Positions 29,799 to 45,754 of a DNA stretch of 64,000 nt are shown in pieces. This DNA is from Streptomyces sp. NBC_01298 (GTDB lineage: Bacteria; Actinomycetota; Actinomycetes; Streptomycetales; Streptomycetaceae), in contig NZ_CP108414.1 of the NCBI RefSeq assembly GCF_035978755.1, positions 310,001-374,000 of the forward strand, given 5' to 3'. Numbering within the stretch: position 1 is the first letter of the stretch; each line of letters starts with the position of its first letter. The notes under the pieces were generated by a model, which was given only the letters and a program-made list of their open reading frames with translations, was not told the DNA's origin and searched no databases. A program made the position numbers and the translations under genes.

Positions 29799-32708
29799 AT
29801 GCGCAGTTCCCCCACCACGAAGGGCCGTGCCCGGCCCCTGATAGCCGCCCTGGCCTGCTGTCTGGGCCTGACGATGCTCGCCCCCGCCGGCCAGGCCTTC
29901 GCACGCGAGCTGAAGCCCGCCGCTCCCGCTCCGGCCGTGAAGTCCGGCGCCGCCCCGCAGCCCTCGACCCCGGCCGCCGCGGCCGCCTCCCTCAGGTCCG
30001 AGCACGCCGCACGTCCGGACGCGGACCTGTCCGAGCGCGCACCGCTCCGGGCCACCAAAGAGGCCGCGCGCACCGAACAGCGCTCGTCCAAGGCCCTGTT
30101 GGCGCCCGGCGCCGCTGCCGCCGCCGAGGCCCTCGCCGCGGCCTGCAACGTCGCGGACTTCACCTCGAAGACCGGGGCCGCGCTGGTCCAGCAGATCAAG
30201 GCCTCCGAGATGGACTGCGTGAACTCGCTGTTCCTGCTCAAGGGCAACGACGCGCAGGCCGCCTTCCGCGAGGCGCAGATGGTCTCGGTGGCCGACGCCC
30301 TGCGCACCGCCTCCGCCACCTACCCGGGCGACAACAGCACGAAGACCGGGCAGCTCGTGCTCTTCCTGCGGGCCGGCTACTACGTGCAGTGGTACAACGA
30401 GTCCACCGTCGGGACCTACGGGCCGGCTCTGAAGAGCTCGATCCGGGGCGCCCTGGACACCTTCTTCGCCGCTCCCCGCGCGGCCGACGTGACGGATGCC
30501 AACGGCCCGACCCTGGGCGAGAGCGTCATCCTGATCGACAGCGCCCAGGAGAACGCGCGCTACCTCGGCGTGGCCAAGCGGCTGCTGAGCGGCTACAACT
30601 CCTCGTACAACAGCAGCCCGTCGATGCTGGCGGCCGTCAACAACGCCTACACGGTGCTGTTCCGCGGCCACCAGACCGCCGAGTTCCTGCCGGCCGTCCA
30701 GGCCGACCCGAGCATCCTCACGGTGCTGCGCGACTTCGCCGTCACCCATGACGCGCTCCTGGGTACGGACAAGAGCTACTTGACGGCCAACGCGGGCCGC
30801 GAGCTGGGCCGCTTCCTCCAGCACTCCGCGCTCCAGGCGACCGTACGGCCGCTCGTCAAGCAGCTGCTGGACCGCACCTCGATCACCGGCCGGACCTCCT
30901 CGCTGTGGGTGCCGCTCGCCGAGATGACCACCTCGTACGACGCGGCCAACTGCTCCTACTACGGGACCTGCGACCTGCCGGCCCGGGTGCGTGCCGCCGT
31001 CCTGACGGTCAACCACACCTGCAGCCCGACCCTGCGGATCGTGGCGCAGCAGATGACCGCCGCCGAGCTCGGCGCGAGCTGCACCAGCCTGGCCAACCAG
31101 GACGCCTTCTTCCACAACGTGGTCAAGGACTCCGGCCCGGTCGCCAACGACAAGAACACCATGCTCGAGGTCGTGGCCTTCGACTCCAGCGCCGACTACG
31201 CGTCCTACGCCGGTGTCATCTTCGGGATCAGCACCAACAACGGCGGCATGTACCTGGAGGGTGACCCCTCGGTCACCGGGAACCAGCCGCGGTTCATCGC
31301 CTACGAGGCGGAGTGGGTCCGGCCGGAGTTCCAGATCTGGAACCTCAACCACGAGTACACCCACTACCTCGACGGCCGTTTCAACATGTACGGCGACTTC
31401 GACCTGGGGATGACCACCCCGACCGTGATGTGGGTCGAGGGCTTCGCCGAGTACATCTCCTACTCCTACCGCGGCGTCGCCTACGACCAGGCCGCCGTCG
31501 AGGCGGGCAAGAACACCTACAAGCTCAGCACGCTCTTCGACACCACCTACGACAACTCCGACTCCACCCGCGTCTACCGGTGGGGCTACCTGGCGGTGCG
31601 CTACCTGCTCCAGTCGCACCCGCAGGACGTGACCACGCTCCTCGGCCACTACCGCGCCGGCAACTGGGCGGCCGCCCGCACCCTGCTCACCTCCACCATC
31701 GGCACCCGCTACGACGCGGACTTCGCCGCCTGGCTGGTCAAGTGCGCGGCCGGAGACTGCGGCGGCGGCACCACCCCGCCGGCCAACAAGGCCCCGGTGG
31801 CCGGGTTCACGGCCGCGGTGAACGCCCTGGCGGTCACCTTCACCGACACCTCCACGGACGCGGACGGCACCATCGCCTCCCGCGCCTGGACCTTCGGTGA
31901 CGGCACCACCTCCACCTCCGCCAACCCGGTCAAGAGCTACGCGGCGGCCGGTACGTACACCGTCAAGCTCACGGTCACCGACAACAAGGGCGCCACCGCC
32001 ACCACCAGCAAGGCGGTCACGGTCGGCAGCGCCGGGCCCGGTGAGTGCGCCAACGCCGACGTGCGGGTGCTCGGTGACAACTGCTACCGCTCCAACGTCT
32101 CCGCGACGACCGGCAACTACGGCTACTTCTACCTGGACGTCCCGGCCGGCACCGGCTCCCTGCAGATCTCGGTCTCGGGCGGCACCGGCAACGCCGACCT
32201 CTACTACAGCCCCACCGGCTGGGCCACCACCAGCAATTACACGGCCCGCTCGGCGCAGAGCGGCAACAGCGAGTCCCTGACCGTCAACAACCCCGCAGCC
32301 GGCCGCGTCTACATCAGCCTGCACGCCGTCCAGGGCTTCGCGGGCGTCACCGTCTCGACCCGGTTCGGTACGGCCCAGGTGGAGTGCCCGGAGGCCGACG
32401 TCCGGATACTCGGCGCCGACTGCAGCCGCTCCAACGTCTCGGCCACCGCCGGGAACTACCGCTACTTCTACGTGAACGTCCCCGCCGGCACCTCCTCCCT
32501 GAAGATCTCGGTCTCGGGCGGCACCGGCAACGCCGACCTCTACTACAGCCCCACCACCTGGGCCACCACGGGCAACTACACCGCCCGCTCCGCCCAGGCC
32601 GGCAACACCGAAACCCTGACCATCACCAACCCGCCGGCCGGCTACCTCTACGTCAGCCTGCACGCAGCGCAGGACTTCGCCGGAGCCACCGTCTCCAGCC
32701 GCTTCTGA
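29799..32708 (+). CDS. Secreted M9 collagenase with PKD and two PPC domains
   Basis: A 969-residue exported metalloprotease. After the signal peptide ('LIAALACCLGLTMLAPAGQA') comes an activator domain, then the peptidase: 'NHEYTHYLDG' holds His518, Glu519 and His522, and Glu551 in 'EGFAEYISYSY' is the third zinc ligand. About residues 664-745 are a PKD domain. Two about 100-residue PPC-type domains follow (about 752-855 and 862-968), each with the 'SNVSAT.GNY.YFY' start and 'SGGTGNADLYYSP'. This is the layout of clostridial and Streptomyces collagenases, where the tail domains bind collagen. A GGAGG site precedes the ATG. Action is extracellular. Confidence 0.95.
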   Translation: MRSSPTTKGRARPLIAALACCLGLTMLAPAGQAFARELKPAAPAPAVKSGAAPQPSTPAAAAASLRSEHAARPDADLSERAPLRATKEAARTEQRSSKALLAPGAAAAAEALAAACNVADFTSKTGAALVQQIKASEMDCVNSLFLLKGNDAQAAFREAQMVSVADALRTASATYPGDNSTKTGQLVLFLRAGYYVQWYNESTVGTYGPALKSSIRGALDTFFAAPRAADVTDANGPTLGESVILIDSAQENARYLGVAKRLLSGYNSSYNSSPSMLAAVNNAYTVLFRGHQTAEFLPAVQADPSILTVLRDFAVTHDALLGTDKSYLTANAGRELGRFLQHSALQATVRPLVKQLLDRTSITGRTSSLWVPLAEMTTSYDAANCSYYGTCDLPARVRAAVLTVNHTCSPTLRIVAQQMTAAELGASCTSLANQDAFFHNVVKDSGPVANDKNTMLEVVAFDSSADYASYAGVIFGISTNNGGMYLEGDPSVTGNQPRFIAYEAEWVRPEFQIWNLNHEYTHYLDGRFNMYGDFDLGMTTPTVMWVEGFAEYISYSYRGVAYDQAAVEAGKNTYKLSTLFDTTYDNSDSTRVYRWGYLAVRYLLQSHPQDVTTLLGHYRAGNWAAARTLLTSTIGTRYDADFAAWLVKCAAGDCGGGTTPPANKAPVAGFTAAVNALAVTFTDTSTDADGTIASRAWTFGDGTTSTSANPVKSYAAAGTYTVKLTVTDNKGATATTSKAVTVGSAGPGECANADVRVLGDNCYRSNVSATTGNYGYFYLDVPAGTGSLQISVSGGTGNADLYYSPTGWATTSNYTARSAQSGNSESLTVNNPAAGRVYISLHAVQGFAGVTVSTRFGTAQVECPEADVRILGADCSRSNVSATAGNYRYFYVNVPAGTSSLKISVSGGTGNADLYYSPTTWATTGNYTARSAQAGNTETLTITNPPAGYLYVSLHAAQDFAGATVSSRF

Positions 32709-32777: not shown

Positions 32778-35700
32778 TCAGGAGTAGGCCTCCACCTCCC
32801 ACAGTGAGTAGCCGTACCCGGTCGCCCGCTGGGTGCCGGTCACCCGGAGGTGGCGTCCGCTGCCGTTCAGCCCGGTCAGTTCGTCCGTCCCGCCGTCGCT
32901 CGTGGTGGTGGAGTACACGTCCCTCCAGGTGGCGCCGTCGTCCGACAGCTGCACCGTGTAGGCGCGGCCGTAGGCGACCTCCCAGTTCAGGACCACCCGG
33001 TTCACGCTCTTCACGGATCCCAGATCGATCTGGATCCACTGCGGGTCGGTGGCGAAGGCCGAGGACCAGCGGCTGGTGGCGCTGCCGTCGGTGGCGGCCG
33101 TCGCCGGGTAGTCCGCCGACTGGGCCGAGGAGGCCGTGGCCGGCTTGTTCAGGGCCAGGTTGGGCGAGGTCGTGGACCCGAGGTCGTCCACGGCCAGGTC
33201 GTCGACGACCAGGTCCCGGTCGGAGTCGGAGGTCTCCGCCGTGAGCTTGCGCATGCCGATCCAGGCGTCCGCCCCGGCCGTGAAGGTCTTGGTGAAGGTG
33301 TTCGTGGTGCGGGCCTGCGGCAGCGTGTCGGAGGAGACCTGGGCCGTACCGGCGCCCAGGGTGAAGGCGTAGTCCCCGGCCACGGACTGCTGGTACTCGA
33401 AGGTCACCTTGTACTGGTGGCCGGGCTCGAAGCGCAGGGTCTGCGGGATGGTCTGGTAGAGCAGTCCGGGGCGTTCCTCGTGGGATTTGAGGGAGTTGGC
33501 GCCGGCGAGCACGTCGTCGATCAGCTTGCCGTTCCAGCCGGCCTGCGTGTACGGGGCGTTGAGCTGGGCCAGGTGCGTGCGCGGGTCGGCCGCAGCTCCG
33601 CCCGCCGGGCCGACGACGAAGGGGTACCAGCCGGAGTCGACGTGCTCGAAGTCCTCCGCGAAGGTGTGGCCGCCCTGCGGACCGCGGGCCGTGCGCACCA
33701 CGCGCACGTCGTCGAAGCCGGCCGTTCCCGTCGCCGCGTCGGCGCGCAGGGCCAGGGTGGCGGTGGACTGGCCCGCCGGGACGTCGAACAGCACCCGCAT
33801 CCGCTGCATGGTGCTGCCGTTCTTCTCGTCCGCCCCGACGTTGTTCCGGTACGGGGAACTCGTGGCGTAGGCGCTCTGCTCGGCGCCGCCCGCCGGGGTG
33901 ACGGCCAGGGTGGCCTTGCGGCCGGTGGCGGTGGAGACGTACACGCTCGCCGCGTAGGTGCCCAGGGTCAGGCCCGTGAGCTGCTGCGACACGGAGGTGG
34001 CGCCCTGGCCGACGGTCAGCTGCGACTGGCCCACGGCGTTGCGGGTGACGGACGCGGAGCCGGCGACCGTCCACTTCGACAGGTCGCCGGAGGTGAAACC
34101 GGGGTCCCGGACCGGGCCGCCCTCACCGAATCCGGCGTCCGCCTGGACCGGCGCGGCCGAGGGGTAGACGACGTAGGGGGTCTTCGCGGTGGCGGTGACG
34201 GTGACCTTGCCGCCGGTCACCGGGAGGTCGGAGACCGGGACCCGGCCCTGGTCGGTGAGCTTGTACAGCTTGGCCGTGCCGTTCTGGGCCCAGGAGGTGG
34301 GCACGTTCCAGGTGGAGGTGCCGCCCGCGCCGCTCCAGTGGTACAGCTTCGACTCGCCGCTCTGGTTCCAGGGCAGCAAGTAGCTGTCGCCGATCAGGAC
34401 GGGGTGGCCGTCCTTGCTGATGGTGCGGGTGGCGCCGCTGAGGGTGGCGCTGACCCCGCCGTCGAAGTTGATGCGGTTGGCGGCCCATTTGCGGATGGTG
34501 AAGCCCTGGAGGTACTTGGTGGGCAGGTTGGTGGTGAAGGTGGTGGAGATGAAGTTGGCGAAGTCCTTCGTGCCCTGCCAGCCCTCGTAGGCGGTCAGGG
34601 TGCCGCCGCCGAGCAGCGGGTCTCCGGCGATCCAGTCGTCGCGCTGCTGGTTGCGGATGAAGCGCACCACCTGGGAGTTGACCCCCTTGTAGTTGCTGCC
34701 TCCGTAGTTGAGGTCGTTGGCCCAGTGCGACCAGAGGGACTGGTCCTCGAACTTGTCGGGGAACTCGGTGGTGAGCTGGTAGCCGAGGCCGTTGATCTCG
34801 CGGGCCAGGGCCTGGGAGGTGTAGCCGTCCCCGTACCAGGTGTCCACGTAGAGGAACTTGAGGTCGGGGGCGACCGCTTTGAGTTCCTGGAGGCGGGCCA
34901 GGCGCTTGCCGCTGGTGCCGTCCAGGCGGTAGTTCAGGTGGTAGGACTGGTCCAGGTAGTCCCATCCCTTGTCCGCGCCCCCGCTGTTGAGGAGCGCCGG
35001 GTCGAAGCCGCGGGCGACCGGGTAGGCCTCGGTGTCGTTGATGTGCACGCCGATGTCGGCGTTGTAACCGGCGCCCGCCGCGATCAGGGTGTTCAGGTCG
35101 GCGGCGCCGCCCTGCCGGGTGCCGACCAGCCCGTAGTCGGGGTGGGCCGAGTCGTGGCCCTCGGAGCCGTAGCCCTTGAGCAGGACGAACTGGCCCAGCC
35201 CGTCCGTGGCCCGGGCCACGCGCTTGGTCTCGTCCAGGGTCTGGAGGAAGGGATGCGTGGCCTGGGAGGCGAAGTTGTACGGGATGCGCTGCACGACCCG
35301 GCGGGCGGTGTCCTGCCAGCCCTGGGGGCTGGTCATGATCGAGCGGAAGGCGACGGCTCCGTCCTGCCAGTCGACGGCGGCGTCGGCGTTGCGGTCGCCG
35401 GTCACCACGACCTTGGCGTACGGCAGCGGTTCGGTGCCCGGAGCTCCGGCCGCGCGGTGCAGCCAGTCGCCGCTCCACAGACCGGCCCGCCGGTAGCCGG
35501 ACTTGGCCACCGTCTGCTTCTGGATCCGGCCGCTGTCCGCCGCGTTCTGGCCGGACGGACTGTCGTAGTACGAGTTGGTGGCGATCGAGGCGGCGAGGGA
35601 ACCGGTGTTGAGGATCGCGTACATGGCGCCCTGCGGGGCGGCGTCCGCGGTCGTGCCGGAGGTGAGCGGGGTGAAGGTGTCCCCGGTGCCGGTGGTGTTG

Positions 35701-36179
35701 GTGTTCATCCGGGTGGTCTCCACGGCGGCTCCGGGCTGGGAGCTGCGCACCGAGACGAGGTTGTGCTGCGGGATCGAGAGCGAGGTGACGGGTACGGCGC
35801 TGTCGGCGATCGAGGTGACGGCGAAGGTGAGGGCGCTGCCGCTGACCGACAGGGTGGCCTTGACCGTGTCCCCGTTGGCGAAGGCCATCGTGTAGTCGAC
35901 GTGGTCGGCGGCGACGGTGCTGGTCACGATCGGGGTCTGCGCGGAGCCGTTGAGGTTCACCTGGGTGAGGGGGTCCTCGTTGCCGTGGAGGACGGCGCCG
36001 GTGGCCTGGTCGGTGAACTGGACGACCCGGGGGAAGGCGGTGTCGACCTGGACCGCGAGGGCGGGTGAGGCGATGGTGACGGTTCCGGCGGCGGTGGCGG
36101 GCGCGATCCCGGCCACCAGCGTGGTGCCGAGGCCGAGGACGGCGGCGCAGAGGAGGGACGTGGGGCGGAGCGGTCTCAT
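32778..36179 (-). CDS. Secreted GH101 endo-alpha-N-acetylgalactosaminidase
   Basis: A 1133-residue exported glycosidase. After the signal peptide ('LLCAAVLGLGTTLVAGIAPA') comes a beta-sandwich, then a barrel with 'KFLYVDTWYGDGYTS' (Asp446, likely nucleophile) and 'YQLTTEFPDKFEDQ' (Glu472, likely acid/base), the arrangement of GH101. Later modules are carbohydrate-binding (about 700-990), and the last 140 residues are an F5/8C (CBM32) domain ('NLALNKPATASSAQSADYPA', 'QWIQIDLGSVKSVNRVVLNW'). GH101 enzymes release Gal-beta-1,3-GalNAc from Ser/Thr of mucin-type glycoproteins. ATG at 36179 has an AGGGAG site. The putative glycosidase gene upstream is on the same strand. Confidence 0.9.
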   Translation of the reverse strand: MRPLRPTSLLCAAVLGLGTTLVAGIAPATAAGTVTIASPALAVQVDTAFPRVVQFTDQATGAVLHGNEDPLTQVNLNGSAQTPIVTSTVAADHVDYTMAFANGDTVKATLSVSGSALTFAVTSIADSAVPVTSLSIPQHNLVSVRSSQPGAAVETTRMNTNTTGTGDTFTPLTSGTTADAAPQGAMYAILNTGSLAASIATNSYYDSPSGQNAADSGRIQKQTVAKSGYRRAGLWSGDWLHRAAGAPGTEPLPYAKVVVTGDRNADAAVDWQDGAVAFRSIMTSPQGWQDTARRVVQRIPYNFASQATHPFLQTLDETKRVARATDGLGQFVLLKGYGSEGHDSAHPDYGLVGTRQGGAADLNTLIAAGAGYNADIGVHINDTEAYPVARGFDPALLNSGGADKGWDYLDQSYHLNYRLDGTSGKRLARLQELKAVAPDLKFLYVDTWYGDGYTSQALAREINGLGYQLTTEFPDKFEDQSLWSHWANDLNYGGSNYKGVNSQVVRFIRNQQRDDWIAGDPLLGGGTLTAYEGWQGTKDFANFISTTFTTNLPTKYLQGFTIRKWAANRINFDGGVSATLSGATRTISKDGHPVLIGDSYLLPWNQSGESKLYHWSGAGGTSTWNVPTSWAQNGTAKLYKLTDQGRVPVSDLPVTGGKVTVTATAKTPYVVYPSAAPVQADAGFGEGGPVRDPGFTSGDLSKWTVAGSASVTRNAVGQSQLTVGQGATSVSQQLTGLTLGTYAASVYVSTATGRKATLAVTPAGGAEQSAYATSSPYRNNVGADEKNGSTMQRMRVLFDVPAGQSTATLALRADAATGTAGFDDVRVVRTARGPQGGHTFAEDFEHVDSGWYPFVVGPAGGAAADPRTHLAQLNAPYTQAGWNGKLIDDVLAGANSLKSHEERPGLLYQTIPQTLRFEPGHQYKVTFEYQQSVAGDYAFTLGAGTAQVSSDTLPQARTTNTFTKTFTAGADAWIGMRKLTAETSDSDRDLVVDDLAVDDLGSTTSPNLALNKPATASSAQSADYPATAATDGSATSRWSSAFATDPQWIQIDLGSVKSVNRVVLNWEVAYGRAYTVQLSDDGATWRDVYSTTTSDGGTDELTGLNGSGRHLRVTGTQRATGYGYSLWEVEAYS

Positions 36180-36308: not shown

Positions 36309-38324
36309 TCACCAGCGCAGGACGGCCCAGCCCCGGTGCGGCAGTTCGGTGTCCGGCCGCACGGTCCGGCCCTGGCTGCCGGTGTCCGCGCGGCGGGGTT
36401 CGGCGAGGGGGGCCAGGAGGGTCGCCGCGACCACTGCCGCGTCCGGGAGGGCGGGCAGGTCCACCACGGGCCGGGCGGGGTCCTGGCAGCCGTTGGCCAC
36501 GGTCAGGGTGGTGACACCGTCGGCGTGGGAGAGGTGCGGGATAAGGTGGGGGCCGCCGCTGACCAGCGGGAGGCGGGCGTCCTCCCCCTCCAGGAAGCGG
36601 ACCGTGCGGTGCAGCAGAAGCTGCGCGTGGTCGTCGGCCGGCAGCGTGTGGGGCTCGGTCGCGGCGAGTACGGCGACGCGTCCGCCGAGGGCGTTGGTGA
36701 AGGCGGTGCGGCCCGCCCCCCAGGTGCGGCCGTCCGGAGTGCGGACCTCGCTCCACCGCCGCGTCCCGGGTGCTTCCCGGAGCCGGGCCAGGGCGGGTTG
36801 GGTGTTGACGCTGAGGAGCAGCCCCGCCAGGTCCTCGCCCGCCGCGCCGCACAGCCGCTCGGTGGCGTACGGGCCCGGCCCGCCGGTGGCGGCGGGAGCC
36901 TCGCGGTCCACCTGTTCGGCCCCGGTCAGCCCGATGAGGGGGCCGAAGCCGCGCCGGTGCAGGATCACCGCGGCGGTCCCGTCGAGCAGCAGACCGCCGG
37001 CGAGCATGGCCCGTACCGCCGGATCGCCGAAGGCCCAGGCCGACGGGCCGAACAGGGCTCGCACGGGAGCGGGTTCGGCCGTCACGGGTACTCCGTAGCG
37101 CAGCAGGAACTCGGCCGCCGGGCCCGGATCGACCGCCAGCTCGGTCAGGTCGCCGCCGTGTGCCCGTACGTGGGCCGCGGCGTCCTGGGCGAAGGGAAGG
37201 CCGACGCCGAGCGTGCGCTGCCCGCGCGGATGCTGCCGGCTGACGAGGTCCAGCGCGGGGCGGGCCCGGCGCAGGAGTTCCGCGGTCCGGGGGTGGTGGC
37301 CGGGGCGCGCTCCGTGCAGGGGGTAGAGGTTGAGCAGGAGGGCGTCCGCCCCGGAGAGCTGGGCGGCGACCATCTCCGACCAGGTCTGGACATCGGATTT
37401 GGACCAGGCGGTGTGCGGCCAGTTCTCGATCTCGGGTTCGCTGTCCACGAACTCCGGCCGCAGGGAGCGCTGCAGTTCCGGCATCCACACCTGCCGGGCG
37501 AGCTCGCGTCCGGGGGCGTCCGCGTACGGGGCGAAGTGCGGGCGGTGCGCGGCGCCCCCTCCGGGGGCCAGGGCCCCGAAGAGCGCGCTCCAGTCCCGGC
37601 CCTCCACGGAGGCGGCGTCCAGTCCGGAGCTCATCAGCCCGGTGCGGGAGCGGCCGGCCGAGCGCCGGTGCACCTCGCCGGCCACCTGCGCGGCCACCTC
37701 CTGCTGCGCGGTCCGCCACACCCGCTGCCACAGCTCGCGCAGTGGGTGCGGGGGGCCGGGGGCGGTGAGTGCGGCGACCAGTTCGGGGCGCGGGACCGGG
37801 CGTCCGGCGAGGGCGGCCAGCCGTTCCAGCATGAGGGGTTCGAAGCCGCCGCCCCAGTCCAGCGGGGCGTGGTTGTGGAAGCGGAAGTCGTCCTCCAGCC
37901 ACAGCACGCGGAAGCCCAGCTCGGCGAAGCGCCCGTAGTGTCCGGTCAGCCAGGCGCGCCAGCGCGGGCAGGCGAAGGAGGCCTGGGCCGTGGCCACTTG
38001 TCCGGCCGGGGAGACCATCGGGGCGAAGCCGCGGGTGTCGCGGCGGCCCCGGTCGGCGTGTCCGGTGGTCACCCAGGGGTTGAGGCTCACCTCGAGTCCG
38101 GCGCCGAGGAGGACCTCCTGGGCGGTGGCCGCCGCTTCGAACCAGAGGTCCTCGTCGGGTCCGGAGAGGTGGCCGGTGAAGTGCTCCTCGGCCCCGAGGA
38201 GGAGCACCACTTCGGCAACGCCCGCGTCGGTGCAGGTCTTGGCCAGTTCGGCCGCCGTGGCCCTGACGGCGTCCGGGCCTTCGTACGGGTGGATCTGGAA
38301 CCGCAGGTGGTACCGGGCACTCAC
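36309..38324 (-). CDS. Putative cytoplasmic glycoside hydrolase
   Basis: A 671-residue protein with no signal peptide. The N-terminal 350 residues have barrel-like periodicity with 'SLNPWVTTGH', 'VLWLEDDFRFHNH' and 'TGLMSSGLDA', as in GH family TIM barrels where acidic residues end strands ('WLEDDFR' may hold catalytic Asp/Glu). The later part has a Rossmann-like stretch and a small beta domain ('TLTVANGCQDPARPV'). The GTG at 38324 has a GAGGAGG site 8 bases upstream. Lying between GH101 and a ROK regulator, it could process sugars released from glycoproteins. The family assignment is an inference from fold-like features. Confidence 0.55.
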   Translation of the reverse strand: MSARYHLRFQIHPYEGPDAVRATAAELAKTCTDAGVAEVVLLLGAEEHFTGHLSGPDEDLWFEAAATAQEVLLGAGLEVSLNPWVTTGHADRGRRDTRGFAPMVSPAGQVATAQASFACPRWRAWLTGHYGRFAELGFRVLWLEDDFRFHNHAPLDWGGGFEPLMLERLAALAGRPVPRPELVAALTAPGPPHPLRELWQRVWRTAQQEVAAQVAGEVHRRSAGRSRTGLMSSGLDAASVEGRDWSALFGALAPGGGAAHRPHFAPYADAPGRELARQVWMPELQRSLRPEFVDSEPEIENWPHTAWSKSDVQTWSEMVAAQLSGADALLLNLYPLHGARPGHHPRTAELLRRARPALDLVSRQHPRGQRTLGVGLPFAQDAAAHVRAHGGDLTELAVDPGPAAEFLLRYGVPVTAEPAPVRALFGPSAWAFGDPAVRAMLAGGLLLDGTAAVILHRRGFGPLIGLTGAEQVDREAPAATGGPGPYATERLCGAAGEDLAGLLLSVNTQPALARLREAPGTRRWSEVRTPDGRTWGAGRTAFTNALGGRVAVLAATEPHTLPADDHAQLLLHRTVRFLEGEDARLPLVSGGPHLIPHLSHADGVTTLTVANGCQDPARPVVDLPALPDAAVVAATLLAPLAEPRRADTGSQGRTVRPDTELPHRGWAVLRW

Positions 38325-38376
38325 GCCGTCGGCCTCCTCGCCGTCAGCTCGCGGCCGCACTCACTCACCGCCGAGC

Positions 38377-40910: not shown

Positions 40911-42668
40911 ATGAGCTTTCATCATCTTCCGCAACCACCTTCCGACGAGGAGCTCTACTGGTACTTCGGCCCGCAACGACGCTGGGTCCTCATCAGCACG
41001 AGCCTCGCCTTCGTCTTCACCGCGGCGACCATGTTCACCTTCGCGCTGCGCACTCCGGCCCTGTGGGCCTTCCTCGCCGTCCTCGGGCTCAACCTCGTCG
41101 CCCTCGTCCTCTCCTCGGTGAACAGCCTGCGGCAGCGCAGGCTGACCCGGCCCTCGCACGAGGTGCTCGTGCGCGCCTGGCAGCCCGCCCGACTGCCCGG
41201 CGTGGACCTGTACCTGCCGACCTGCGGCGAGCCCCTCCCCGTTCTGGACAACGCCTACCGCGCCGTGGCATCGGTCGACTGGCCCGGCGCGCTGACCACA
41301 TGGGTCCTGGACGACGCCGACCGGCCCGAAGTCGCCGCGCTGGCGGCCTCGTACGGGTACGAGTACGTCGTACGGCCCGACCGGGGACATCTGAAGAAGG
41401 CCGGGAACCTCAATCACGCGCTGACCCTGAGCAGCGCCGAGTTCATCGCCATCCTCGACGCCGACTTCGCACCCCGGCCGGACTTCCTGCGTCATCTCGT
41501 GCCCTATCTGGCCGACCCGGCCGTCGGGATCGTGCAGAGCCCGCAGTGCTTCGACACCGACGGGTCCATGGGCTGGATCCAGCGCGCCGCGGGCTCCGCC
41601 CAGGAGTGGTTCTTCCGCTGGATCCAGCCGTCCCGGGACGCGAGCGACGCCGCCATCTGCTGCGGCAGCAACGCCGTCTACCGGCGCGCCGCCATCGACC
41701 TGGCCGGCGGCTTCGCCCGCCTCGACCACAGTGAGGACCTGTACACCGGCCTCGCCCTGCACGCCCGGGGGTTCCGCACCCTGTACGTGCCGGTGCTGGT
41801 CGCCAAGGGCACCTCCCCCGATGAGGTCACCTCCTTCGTCAACCAGCAGTACCGGTGGGCGATGGGCAACCTCCACCTCCTCACCTCGCCCGTCCTGCGG
41901 AAGATGGGCGCGCCCTGGCGGATGCGCCTGTGCTTCTACGAGGGAGTCGTCGGCTACCTGGCCGCCGCCGTGAACACCTTCGCGGCGCCGCTGCCGCCCC
42001 TGGTGATGATGTTCTGGTACCCCGACGACATCCGGCCCTGGCACGTCCTGCCGCTCCTCGCCCCGCTGTGGCTCTGGCACGTGCTGCTGCCGCGGATCAG
42101 CAGGACCCGCTGGCGGGTGGAGGTCATCCGGGCGAACGTCCTGACGAGCGTCGCCGCCACCACCGCCTTCCTGCACACCCTGCGCGGCCGCAGCGCCGAC
42201 TGGGTGCCCACCGGCACCCGGGGCCCCGCCCGCTCCGGCGGGATGGCCCGCCGGGTGGTGGGCGTCTCGCTGCTCTGGCTGGTCCTCTCCAACGGGGCTG
42301 CCGGGGCGGGCCTGGCGCTGGCCGTGGCCCGCAACGGCTGGGAGCCCAACTGGGGTCTGCTCCTCTACTTCCTGGTGCAGTGCCAGATCAACGGCCCGCT
42401 GGTCCGGGACCTGATCTCCGAGCTGCGGCCGGCGGCGGCCGCCGGGAAGTCCACCGGGGCCGCCCTCTCCGGGGACACCGCCGCCGGGCCCGGACCGGAG
42501 CCGCGCGGCGGCCGTCGCCGCAGCCTCGTACGGGCCTTCGGCGGCCACTCCCCCAGCGGCGTGCTGCCGCGCCGCTGGCCCGAGACCCTCGCCGCCTCGG
42601 CGGTGCTCCTGCTCACCGGCCTGCTGGCATCCGGGTGGGTCAACCCCATGCTTCCCTGGCTGAGTTGA
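40911..42668 (+). CDS. Cellulose synthase-like family 2 glycosyltransferase
   Basis: A 585-residue membrane glycosyltransferase. Two N-terminal membrane segments (about 24-47, 50-70) precede the GT-A domain, which begins with the cellulose-synthase hallmark 'YLPTCGEPL'. Catalytic motifs are Asp134-Asp135, Asp183-x-Asp185 ('ILDADFAP'), 'HSEDLYTG' for the base (Ser-Glu-Asp in place of Thr-Glu-Asp) and 'QQYRWAMG' (312-319) for the chain-holding QxxRW. Several more membrane segments follow and would form the export channel. It should polymerise a beta-linked glucan from a UDP-sugar and push it out. There is no PilZ domain. It starts an apparent operon with the trifunctional protein 17 bases downstream. 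Confidence 0.9.
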   Translation: MSFHHLPQPPSDEELYWYFGPQRRWVLISTSLAFVFTAATMFTFALRTPALWAFLAVLGLNLVALVLSSVNSLRQRRLTRPSHEVLVRAWQPARLPGVDLYLPTCGEPLPVLDNAYRAVASVDWPGALTTWVLDDADRPEVAALAASYGYEYVVRPDRGHLKKAGNLNHALTLSSAEFIAILDADFAPRPDFLRHLVPYLADPAVGIVQSPQCFDTDGSMGWIQRAAGSAQEWFFRWIQPSRDASDAAICCGSNAVYRRAAIDLAGGFARLDHSEDLYTGLALHARGFRTLYVPVLVAKGTSPDEVTSFVNQQYRWAMGNLHLLTSPVLRKMGAPWRMRLCFYEGVVGYLAAAVNTFAAPLPPLVMMFWYPDDIRPWHVLPLLAPLWLWHVLLPRISRTRWRVEVIRANVLTSVAATTAFLHTLRGRSADWVPTGTRGPARSGGMARRVVGVSLLWLVLSNGAAGAGLALAVARNGWEPNWGLLLYFLVQCQINGPLVRDLISELRPAAAAGKSTGAALSGDTAAGPGPEPRGGRRRSLVRAFGGHSPSGVLPRRWPETLAASAVLLLTGLLASGWVNPMLPWLS

Positions 42669-42685
42669 AAGGCTCCACGACCACC

Positions 42686-45600
42686 ATGCACTCCCCCGTC
42701 CCCTCCTCCCTTCCCGTCCCCGCACCGCCCCCCGAAGCCCCTGGAGCCCCAGGAGCCCCTGCGCCGTCCGCGCCGTCCGCCCCGCCGGCGAGCTCCGCGG
42801 GCGAGTCCGGGCCCAGTCCGCACCGGTCCGCGTTCCGGCCCGACATCGAGGGGCTGCGCGCCGTCGCCGTCCTCGCGGTCCTCGCCTTCCACGCCGGGGT
42901 GCCGGGGCTCGCGGGCGGATTCGTCGGCGTGGACGTCTTCTTCGTCGTGTCCGGCTACCTCATCACCGGCCTGCTCGTCCGCGAGGCGATCACCACCGGC
43001 CGGATCCGGCTCCTGGACTTCTTCTCCCGGCGGGCCCGCCGGCTCCTGCCCTCCGCCGCCGTCGTCCTCGGCGCGGTGGCGCTGGCCGGCGCCTGGCTGA
43101 CCGTGCCCCTGCGCCGCGCCGACCTGGAGCACGACGTGGTCGCGGCGGCGCTCTCCGTCGCCAACTGGCGGTTCGTCGCCCAGCGGACCGACTACCTCGC
43201 CGCCGGGCACGAGCAGAGCCCGCTGCTGCACTTCTGGTCCCTCGCCGTCGAGGAGCAGTTCTACCTCCTCTGGGCGCCGCTGCTCGCCCTGATCGTGCTC
43301 GCCGCGGCCCGTGCCGTACGCCGCGGCCGCGCCGTGCGTGCCACCGTGGCACTGGCCGCCGTACCGCTGGTGCTGGCTTCGTTCGCGCTGTCGCTGCGCT
43401 GGACGGACCACTCACCTTCGCTCGCGTACCTCGCCACGCCCTCGCGGGTCTGGCAGTTCGGGGTCGGCGCGCTGGTGGCCCTGCTGCCCTGGCACCTCCT
43501 GCGCGGCCCGCGCCCGCTGCGGCTGCTGTGCGGCTGGGCCGGGGGCACGGCGATCGTCTGGAGCGCACTCGCCTACGACGCGTCCACGCCCTATCCCGGC
43601 TACCCGGCCCTGGTACCGACCCTGGGGGCCGCTGCCGTGATCCTCGCCGCGATACCCGGCCGGGGCGAACGCAGCGCGCCCGGCCACTACGGGATCGGCC
43701 GGCTCCTCGCGGGGCGGGCGCCCCGGGCGGTGGGGCGGCTCTCCTACACCCTGTACCTGTGGCACTGGCCGGTGCTCGTCCTCGCCGAGGCCCGCTTCGG
43801 CCCCCAGGACTGGCCGGTGAAGGCCGCCCTCACCCTGGCCGCCGCACTGCCCGCCTACGCCACCATGCGCTGGGTCGAGCAGCCGCTGCGCCGCAGCCGT
43901 ACCGTCTCCGAACTCCCGCGCCGGGGGCTGTCGGTGGGCATCACGGCCGTGGTCCTGCCGTTGGTCCTCGCGCTCGTGGTGGGGACGACCACGCTGAACC
44001 TGCTGGGCCCGGCGACGCCCGTCCAGTCGGCCGGACTGCCCCCGGGCGCCGTCTCCGGCCCGCACCTGCTCGCCCGTACGGGCTCCGCGCCGCTGGAGGC
44101 GGGCCCGGTCGTGCCCGCCCCCGCGCAGGCGCGGGCCGACTTCCCCCCGGACGGCGCCTGCGAGGTGGCACCGGCCGTGACCCGCAGCCCGGACTGCCTG
44201 TTCGGCGCGGTGGACAGCCCGGACCGGATCGTGCTGCTCGGCGATTCGCACGCCGGCCAGTGGTTCTCCGCGATGCTCGCCATGGCCTCCCAACGCGGCT
44301 GGGCGCTACAGGAGTTGGTGAAACAGGGCTGCCCGCTGCCGCAGCTCGCGGTGGACAGCCCCCAGCTCGGCCGCGCCTATCGGGAGTGCGACACCTGGCG
44401 GGCCGACGCCCTGGAGCGGCTGCGGCGGCAGCCGAAGCCGCGGCTCATCGTGATCTCCTCGCTCAACCGCTACACCGACGATTCCGGACTGCTCGCCGAG
44501 GCCTGGGAGAAGACCCTCGAACCCCTGCGGGCCATCGGTGCGCCGATCGTCTACGTCGAAGACACGCCCGTGCCCGGTACGGACGTCCCCGCGTGCGTGT
44601 CCGGCAGCCCCGAGGACCCCGCCGCCTGCGCGTTCAGCCGTACGGACGCCCGGCAGCCCGACCCGCTGGCCCGGCGGATCGCCGCCGGCTCCCTGCCCGG
44701 CGTACGGGCCGTGAGCGTGAACCCGGTGCTGTGCCCGGGTGACGGGCCGACCTGCCCGGCCGTGCTGGACCGCATCATGCTCTACCGGGACGACGCGCAC
44801 CTGACTAACGCGGCGGTCGTCGTGCTGACCCCCCGGCTCGAGCGGCTGCTCACGGACTCGGGGGCACTGCCCGCCGTGGGCGCGTCCGCCACCGCACCCG
44901 GACAGGCCCGGCCGACGGGGCCTACGGGGCCGACGGGGTGGACCGAGGTCTTCCGGGAGGAGTTCGACGGCCCCGCGGGCAGCCCGCCGTCCTCCGCGAA
45001 CTGGCTGCACGACACCGGCACGTGCTACCCGGGCTGCCCCGCGGCCCAGTGGGGCACGGGTGAGATCGAGACGATGACCGACTCCACCGACAACGTCCGC
45101 CTCGACGGCAAGGGCGCGCTGGAGATCGTCCCCACCCGCACGGACGGCGCGTGGAAGTCGGGCCGCATCGAGACCCGGCGCTCCGATTTCGCGCCCCCGG
45201 CCGGCGGGACCCTGCGGATCGAGGCCGCGATCGCCCTGCCCGGGGTGACCGGCGCCGGGGCGGCGGGCTACTGGCCGGCGTTCTGGACGCTCGGGGCGCC
45301 GCTGCGCGACGGGTACACGGGCTGGCCGGGCGTCGGTGAGCTCGACATCATGGAATCGGTCAACGGCCGGGACAGCGTCTTCGCCACCATGCACTGCGGA
45401 ACCCTGGAAGGCGGCCCGTGCCGCGAACCGGCGGGCCTGAGCTCGGGCCCGCGGCCGTGCGGGGACTGCCGTACGGGCTTCCACACGTACGCCGTCGAGG
45501 TTGACCTCTCCCCGGGCGCCGAGGAGGTGCGCTGGTACCTGGACGGTCGCGTGCACCACCGGGTGGCCGCCTCGGAGATGGACCCGGGCACCTGGAAGCG

Positions 45601-45754
45601 GGCGGTGGACCACGGCCTCTTCCTGATCCTCAACGTGGCCATCGGCGGCAACCTCCCCCTGGCCGACGGCGCGACCCCCGGCCCGGCCACCGAACCGGGC
45701 CACCCGATGCGGGTCGACCGGGTAACGGTCTCCACGCGGGCCCGGCCCGCCTGA
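42686..45754 (+). CDS. Trifunctional fusion: acyltransferase-3, SGNH domain and GH16 glucanase
   Basis: A 1022-residue protein with three modules. Residues about 48-430 are an acyltransferase-3 membrane domain of the OafA type ('FRPDIEGLRAVAVLAVLAFH', 'GVDVFFVVSGYLITGLLVRE', 'SLAVEEQFYLLW'). Residues about 505-725 are its SGNH partner, with 'LLGDSHAGQW' (Ser520) and 'DDAHLT' (Asp702/His705). From about 750 comes a GH16 domain with the catalytic 'GELDIMESVNG' (Glu885, Glu890). It would O-acylate a polymer outside the membrane and also cleave a beta-glucan. OafA-SGNH pairs are common, but joining them to GH16 is unusual. Operon placement after the GT2 suggests the product of that enzyme is the substrate. 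Confidence 0.9.
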   Translation: MHSPVPSSLPVPAPPPEAPGAPGAPAPSAPSAPPASSAGESGPSPHRSAFRPDIEGLRAVAVLAVLAFHAGVPGLAGGFVGVDVFFVVSGYLITGLLVREAITTGRIRLLDFFSRRARRLLPSAAVVLGAVALAGAWLTVPLRRADLEHDVVAAALSVANWRFVAQRTDYLAAGHEQSPLLHFWSLAVEEQFYLLWAPLLALIVLAAARAVRRGRAVRATVALAAVPLVLASFALSLRWTDHSPSLAYLATPSRVWQFGVGALVALLPWHLLRGPRPLRLLCGWAGGTAIVWSALAYDASTPYPGYPALVPTLGAAAVILAAIPGRGERSAPGHYGIGRLLAGRAPRAVGRLSYTLYLWHWPVLVLAEARFGPQDWPVKAALTLAAALPAYATMRWVEQPLRRSRTVSELPRRGLSVGITAVVLPLVLALVVGTTTLNLLGPATPVQSAGLPPGAVSGPHLLARTGSAPLEAGPVVPAPAQARADFPPDGACEVAPAVTRSPDCLFGAVDSPDRIVLLGDSHAGQWFSAMLAMASQRGWALQELVKQGCPLPQLAVDSPQLGRAYRECDTWRADALERLRRQPKPRLIVISSLNRYTDDSGLLAEAWEKTLEPLRAIGAPIVYVEDTPVPGTDVPACVSGSPEDPAACAFSRTDARQPDPLARRIAAGSLPGVRAVSVNPVLCPGDGPTCPAVLDRIMLYRDDAHLTNAAVVVLTPRLERLLTDSGALPAVGASATAPGQARPTGPTGPTGWTEVFREEFDGPAGSPPSSANWLHDTGTCYPGCPAAQWGTGEIETMTDSTDNVRLDGKGALEIVPTRTDGAWKSGRIETRRSDFAPPAGGTLRIEAAIALPGVTGAGAAGYWPAFWTLGAPLRDGYTGWPGVGELDIMESVNGRDSVFATMHCGTLEGGPCREPAGLSSGPRPCGDCRTGFHTYAVEVDLSPGAEEVRWYLDGRVHHRVAASEMDPGTWKRAVDHGLFLILNVAIGGNLPLADGATPGPATEPGHPMRVDRVTVSTRARPA

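Follow-up and report, generated by a model that had tools for sequence, protein, structure and literature searches.

A GT2 synthase gene beside an AT3-SGNH-GH16 fusion gene in Streptomyces: a candidate two-gene kit for an acylated extracellular polysaccharide

Can the synthesis of an extracellular polysaccharide, its acylation and its cutting be encoded by two adjacent genes? This question is raised by a gene pair in a 64,000-nucleotide stretch of Streptomyces sp. NBC_01298 (contig NZ_CP108414.1, positions 310,001 to 374,000; the whole stretch is referred to below as the window). The first gene encodes a membrane polysaccharide synthase with the GT2 fold, and the second, whose ATG lies 17 bases beyond the stop codon of the first, a fusion protein composed of an AT3 membrane acyltransferase, an SGNH domain and a GH16 domain (Table 1). 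A previous sequence-only reading had reported this order, this spacing and a single 1022-residue chain, which the coordinates and the open frame confirm. We favour, with some reserve, the view that the two genes make up a kit complete in itself and dedicated to a single extracellular polysaccharide, in which the GT2 would carry out synthesis, the AT3-SGNH part acylation and the GH16 part cutting.

The fusion gene reads as a single open frame without a break (open reading frames of the window). The frame is also open across positions 44860-44960, the stretch containing the SGNH-GH16 linker, which rules out a frameshift there. When 8000 candidate proteins were scored for their match to the GH16 region, 637 reached an E of 1e-3 or lower, of which 120 were listed. 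Among these listed matches, 117 of the 120 homologues contain all three domains (the remaining three are without AT3), and the named sources are Streptomyces and Kitasatospora. The fusion is therefore not a one-off, and the rarity that the sequence-only reading had implied was not upheld, as this architecture is common in the two genera.

The spacing of R58 and H69 in the AT3 domain is that of R14 and H25 in OafA, whose alanine mutants lose activity (PMC7448272; the papers cited here are represented by excerpts of their text). Within the SGNH domain, Ser521 is present in 119 of the 120 listed homologues (one gap), and Asp702 and His705 in all 120. Both Pfam cut-offs are passed and the Arg, His and Ser-Asp-His residues are in place, as in AT3-SGNH O-acyltransferases. 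The score with NF058601 (acetyltransferase SucT) is 218 bits, below the equivalog cut-off of 1275. In that family 11 transmembrane helices put the SGNH domain on the outer side. For the fusion, the SGNH and GH16 parts are predicted to lie outside the cell, the topology having been judged by a hydropathy scan only.

The Pfam search that the sequence-only reading had proposed matched AT3 and SGNH. It did not report GH16 in the fusion, giving just a SKN1/KRE6 match of 17.3 bits, under the cut-off of 30. This domain was recognised instead by comparison of residues 745-1017 with the solved endo-1,3-beta-glucanase PDB 3dgt (E 5e-97), which we take to originate from Streptomyces. The two proteins share the GH16 family and the E-x-D-x-x-E motif, and differ in that the window GH16 is fused to a membrane protein. 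Since GELDIME starts at residue 884, Glu885, Asp887 and Glu890 occupy the expected positions, and the description of a complete GH16 domain with Glu885/Glu890 proved correct. Homology and motif together place the domain among the GH16 endo-1,3-beta-glucanases, and hydrolysis of beta-1,3-glucan is its function as predicted from sequence.

Table 1. Positions of the gene pair and its domains in the window, and partner genes adjoining the GT2 gene at loci of the wider clade
Feature	Position or locus	Strand	Details
GT2 membrane polysaccharide synthase	40911..42668	+	585 aa, ATG at 40911, stop ends 42668
AT3-SGNH-GH16 fusion gene	42686..45754	+	1022 aa, ATG at 42686, stop ends 45754
AT3 membrane acyltransferase domain, residues 53-388	42842..43849	+	Pfam PF01757 Acyl_transf_3, 103 bits
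AT3 key residues R58, H69, GGFVGVD77-83			kept in 117/120 homologues among the matches listed, three fragments gapped
SGNH domain, residues 500-719	44183..44842	+	Pfam PF19040, 111 bits
SGNH-GH16 linker, residues 720-744	44843..44917	+	open frame
GH16 domain, residues 745-1017	44918..45736	+	3dgt match 329 bits; 403 bits with profile A3
GH16 active-site motif E885-L-D887-I-M-E890	45338..45355	+	E, D, E in 120/120 homologues among the matches listed
AT3-SGNH + GH26	L112, L116
AT3 with two SGNH domains + GH16 + GH26, consecutive	L118:1523-9550
GH16 alone	L119
AT3-SGNH alone	L120
PMT + GH26	L113, L117, L126
PMT	L114, L115		L115 also matches GH26 weakly, at 33 bits
GH26 alone	L121, L122

The catalytic signature of the GT2 is complete (D135, D183/D185, E275/D276 and QQYRW312-316); the QxxRW motif described as intact thus starts at residue 312. 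These residues (for the last motif Q312/R315/W316), together with Q209/P211/Q212, are kept in 120/120 GT2 homologues among the matches listed. The protein accordingly carries the D, DxD, ED, QxxRW signature of BcsA/CelA and the QxPH/Q motif, which are described for cellulose synthase together with FxVTxK (PMC6821405). Neither the window GT2 nor any of the 120 listed GT2 homologues contains the literal FxVTxK gating-loop motif; in our own placement, the corresponding loop is WVPTG 431-435. No Pfam match to PilZ was obtained at E up to 0.1, and the NCBIfam CelA score is 176 bits, below the cut-off of 699. On these three grounds a cellulose synthase of the BcsA/CelA family was rejected. The GT2 is best read as a channel-forming synthase.

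In Streptomyces, proof in vitro exists for a single synthase-dependent glucan, the cellulose made by CslA-GlxA, which is a beta-1,4-glucan and is undegraded by beta-1,3-glucanase (PMC11022532). In that system, too, a GT2 synthase has an outward-facing partner, and cslZ is an additional gene of the locus (PMC11022532). Its product differs, and it has its own locus elsewhere in the window genome, where a second GT2 gene adjoins a GlxA (PF21110) gene. This CslA-type protein matches the window GT2 with 75 bits (91 with profile A1), and no GlxA was found among the scanned neighbours of the window GT2. The locus is therefore distinct from CslA-GlxA, as the sequence-only reading had held. The mixed-linkage glucan synthases RiGT2 (PMC10374906) and BgsA (PMC5567048) are further GT2 proteins with D,D,D,QxxRW, and a beta-1,3/1,4 chain is likewise possible for the window GT2. 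RiGT2 differs by its PilZ domain, whereas for BgsA, like the window GT2, none is reported, and the partner genes of both, compared by description and not by sequence, differ from those of the window.

The distribution of the pair was examined in several samples. Among 61 evenly sampled Streptomyces genomes (the window's own included), an orthologous GT2, defined as scoring over 950 bits, occurs in 8, and the three-part fusion adjoins it in 8/8. In this sample the locus is therefore patchy and the fusion constant wherever the orthologue occurs. A scan of species genomes with the GT2 alignment gave 73 loci, 68 of them testable; left out were L073 and L074 (labelled Akkermansia) and L040, L054 and L055 (SGNH not found, contig ends nearby). 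GH16 lies beside GT2 in 64/68. In 54 loci it shares the frame of SGNH, being whole in 51, frame-broken in L039 and L043, and affected by a deletion in L030. A lack of GH16 in homologues combined with a frameshift at 44860-44960, and a failure of GH16 and GT2 ever to co-occur elsewhere, had been named as observations that would speak against the proposed system; neither was made, because the frame is open and the two genes co-occur in these 64 loci.

The genes flanking the window pair were each matched in at most 2 of the 73 loci, as compared with 70 for the fusion, and a larger conserved operon was therefore rejected. Outside the cassette, the 750,095 bases of flank from 71 related loci contained 0 GH16 and a single AT3-SGNH match of at least 40 bits. 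This indicates that the adjacency of GT2 and fusion is not due to chance. In Streptomyces sp. CB00316 a second AT3-SGNH gene (L013:1-2043) precedes the cassette by about 6 kb. Within a phylum sample, matches were limited to 3/100 genomes (the window's own plus L110 and L111). The two Akkermansia-labelled contigs of metagenome-assembled genomes carry a GT2 38-39% identical to that of the window, without partner genes, and their placement possibly reflects binning contamination.

In 10 loci, from Streptosporangium, genera related to it and Longispora, GH16 has a gene of its own located after AT3-SGNH, which together with the fused form constitutes a Rosetta-stone link. All 10 separate proteins start with a lipoprotein-type signal, as judged by eye. 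Most of the related secreted glucanases listed have extra domains (PF03422/PF18099, presumably binding domains), and the fused and separate module forms are listed without them. The Cys780/Cys784 pair was found in 20/22 aligned module forms (2 gapped) and is absent from 10/11 secreted homologues, the exception being P0258. Since the fused and the lipoprotein forms both hold the cutter at the membrane, we read GH16 as acting on the chain that leaves the synthase. Coupling of synthesis, acylation and cutting, as the sequence-only reading had proposed, is thus supported by the conserved adjacency, by the unfused versions of the same module and by the unconserved flanks.

Some loci indicate that GH16 is dispensable in places. 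It is absent from 4/68 (L011, L023, L024 and L058, in S. parvus, S. sindenensis and two further Streptomyces), where the fusion gene stops after SGNH. The active-site stretch is missing from the GH16 of L030 (S. candidus) and from the separate GH16 of L070 (Thermoactinospora rubra), with GT2, AT3 and SGNH still recognisable; these losses may be true deletions or assembly errors. Overall, GH16 or its active site is gone in 6/68 loci in which GT2 and AT3-SGNH persist. In two other cases (L089:7383-10142 and the metagenomic P0076) a shortened GT2 runs straight into SGNH-GH16 and AT3 is missing. The joint is frame-broken in L089 and forms one 667-residue frame in P0076, and the arrangement may have arisen by deletion or misassembly.

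The partners of the synthase also appear to be exchangeable. A class sample of 118 genomes yielded 17 places, two of which were known orthologues, and the other 15 were examined. In the 12 places matching above 400 bits (L123 with an adjoining GH26, and L124 and L125 without a partner, all at 211-220 bits, were left out), GH16 or GH26 adjoins GT2 in 9 and AT3-SGNH or a PMT-like membrane glycosyltransferase in 9, at least one such partner being present in all 12 (Table 1). A sister GT2 (410-463 bits) occurs in 9/61 Streptomyces genomes at 10 places, with GH26 and PMT adjoining in 9/10. Sister GT2-GH26-PMT loci of Streptomyces and other genera (L080-L084, L126, L132-L135, L137-L139) were not met among the literature entries listed, a search aimed at GH26 with GT2 included.

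A GT2 tree was built from 40 sequences, namely the window, 16 of the 71 loci and 23 sequences that belong to the wider clade or to CslA. Loci possessing AT3-SGNH together with GH16 fall into a single clade there, except for L118 and L119, and the remaining combinations are placed next to this clade. The fused loci are grouped in this tree (support 92, the value shown once the tree had been re-rooted). Unlike in this tree, the fused loci do not group together in the GH16 tree (the window, 21 loci and secreted homologues, of which P0300 and P0306, labelled secreted, carry a lipobox and were read as lipoproteins). The fusion may therefore have arisen once or several times. Both GH16 and GH26 include lichenase members (PMC10095428). 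That the two families replace each other within a single synthase clade suggests a glucan of the mixed-linkage or beta-1,3-containing type, which is our best reading of the product.

On this basis the following course of events can be envisaged. The GT2 would polymerise a nucleotide sugar, most likely UDP-glucose, at the cytoplasmic side and export the growing chain through a membrane channel that the protein itself provides. On the outer side the emerging chain would be met by the fusion protein, whose AT3 part would pass the acyl group (acetyl or succinyl) of acyl-CoA across the membrane, while Ser521 of the SGNH part would transfer the acyl group to chain hydroxyls. The GH16 part would then cut or transfer the chain at beta-1,3-containing stretches, and acylation, by analogy with ExoH/ExoK of succinoglycan, probably decides where it acts. 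Fusion would confine acylation and cutting to one place and, as a counterpart of the lipid anchor in relatives, keep the cutter near the synthase. Of the acetylated-glucan system proposed by the sequence-only reading, the coupling of synthesis, acylation and cutting is supported, and both the acetyl group and the glucan are inferred; the acyl group could also be succinyl and the polymer another one.

Succinoglycan, a repeating octasaccharide, is not assembled by a single GT2 synthase and in this respect is unlike a single-GT2 product, and ExoK is a member of GH16. The window pair was likened to ExoH-ExoK by description, not by sequence: an AT3 gene stands beside a glucanase gene, although these encode two separate proteins without SGNH, whereas in the window AT3, SGNH and GH16 form one chain beside GT2. 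In Sinorhizobium meliloti, which offers the nearest functional parallel, exoH, encoding a stand-alone AT3 succinyltransferase, adjoins the glucanase gene exoK, which is homologous to endo-beta-1,3-1,4-glucanases according to a title cited there (PMC9558356, PMC4916376). Succinylation is needed for cutting there, and exoH mutants yield a polymer that is resistant to ExoK and ExsH (PMC4916376). Such control was shown for ExoH-ExoK and is an analogy for the window fusion. Loss of both glycanases has a slight effect on symbiosis, and loss of succinylation abolishes it (PMC4916376); the former fits the six loci that keep GT2 and AT3-SGNH without a working GH16.

Alternatively, GH16 might act not as a trimming hydrolase but as a transglycosylase, linking newly made glucan to other polymers of the wall or resealing chains. 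Some wall-bound fungal GH16 proteins are transglycosylases, and both the membrane-held state of GH16 (through fusion or lipid anchor) and the weak match to yeast SKN1/KRE6 would agree with this. The best-matching solved relatives are, however, named endo-1,3-beta-glucanases, and we regard a transglycosylase as unlikely. A comparably low probability is assigned to a polymer other than glucan (e.g. a mannan or an amino-sugar polymer) bearing an acyl group other than acetyl, with GH16 and GH26 marking different polymers in each subclade: the window GH16 is closest to beta-1,3-glucanases, and the joint presence of GH16 and GH26 in L118 fits one shared beta-glucan. That the fusion attacks foreign beta-glucan of fungal or plant walls, the GT2 being a mere neighbour, seems very improbable. 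Names such as secreted endo-1,3-beta-glucanase are indeed given to related GH16 proteins of Streptomyces that have additional binding domains, but the adjacency to GT2 amid unconserved flanks, the membrane tethering and the swapping of hydrolases within a single synthase clade argue against such a role. A frame artefact or chance neighbourhood is scarcely credible in view of the open frame, the domains shared by listed homologues and the flanks free of further GH16.

The kit as proposed has partial precedents. The principle of synthase, cutter and acylation is already known, as is AT3 beside a glucanase (exoH-exoK). Acetylated-cellulose operons such as Wss of Pseudomonas and Ccs combine, like the window, a synthase, an endoglucanase and acylation machinery, with acylation proteins unrelated to the fusion and a cutter of other GH families. 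The Ccs operons for acetylated cellulose are clostridial (PMC10374906). AT3-SGNH proteins of the OafA/OafB type share the key residues and their spacing with the fusion, which differs by its additional C-terminal GH16; the AT3 fusions reported in the excerpts comprise SGNH, alanine racemase and eukaryotic ones, and no glycoside hydrolase fusion was met there (PMC7448272, PMC9833829, PMC9558356). A GT2 beside an AT3-SGNH-GH16 fusion was not met among the literature entries listed for the fusion, the gene pair, GH26 with GT2, Streptomyces glucan loci or mixed-linkage glucan, and neither were the split AT3-SGNH/GH16 forms or the GH16/GH26 and AT3-SGNH/PMT exchange, subscription journals being mostly uncovered. 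The sequence-only reading knew of no described system with this three-part fusion; the entries listed agree with it, and exoH-exoK is a partial precedent that it had left unmentioned.

Several other genes are located near the pair, namely those for an M9 collagenase that carries PKD and PPC domains (window 29799-32708) and a GH101 endo-alpha-N-acetylgalactosaminidase (32778-36179). Beside the latter is a 683-residue open frame on the minus strand (36309-38360), to which Pfam assigned no domain at E up to 0.001. An anti-phage role of the pair was rejected, as neither the GT2 nor the fusion protein gave a PADLOC match.

To conclude, the balance seems even as to whether the actinobacteria hold an undescribed class of exchangeable kits (a GT2, a membrane-held GH16 or GH26, and an outward AT3-SGNH or PMT-like decorator), in which the merged acylator-cutter of Streptomycetaceae would give some Streptomyces a second glucan, acylated and of the beta-1,3-containing or mixed-linkage type, beside cellulose. 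If the reading as a kit is true, acylation and cutting are coupled within one molecule in this family. The fused, split, swapped and cutter-less versions may serve as natural experiments on the coupling of synthesis, decoration and trimming, and a single enzyme with acylator and cutter would make the question raised by ExoH-ExoK, whether acylation licenses cutting, directly testable in vitro. The locus points to a second synthase-dependent polymer in Streptomyces, with acylation and cutting built in.
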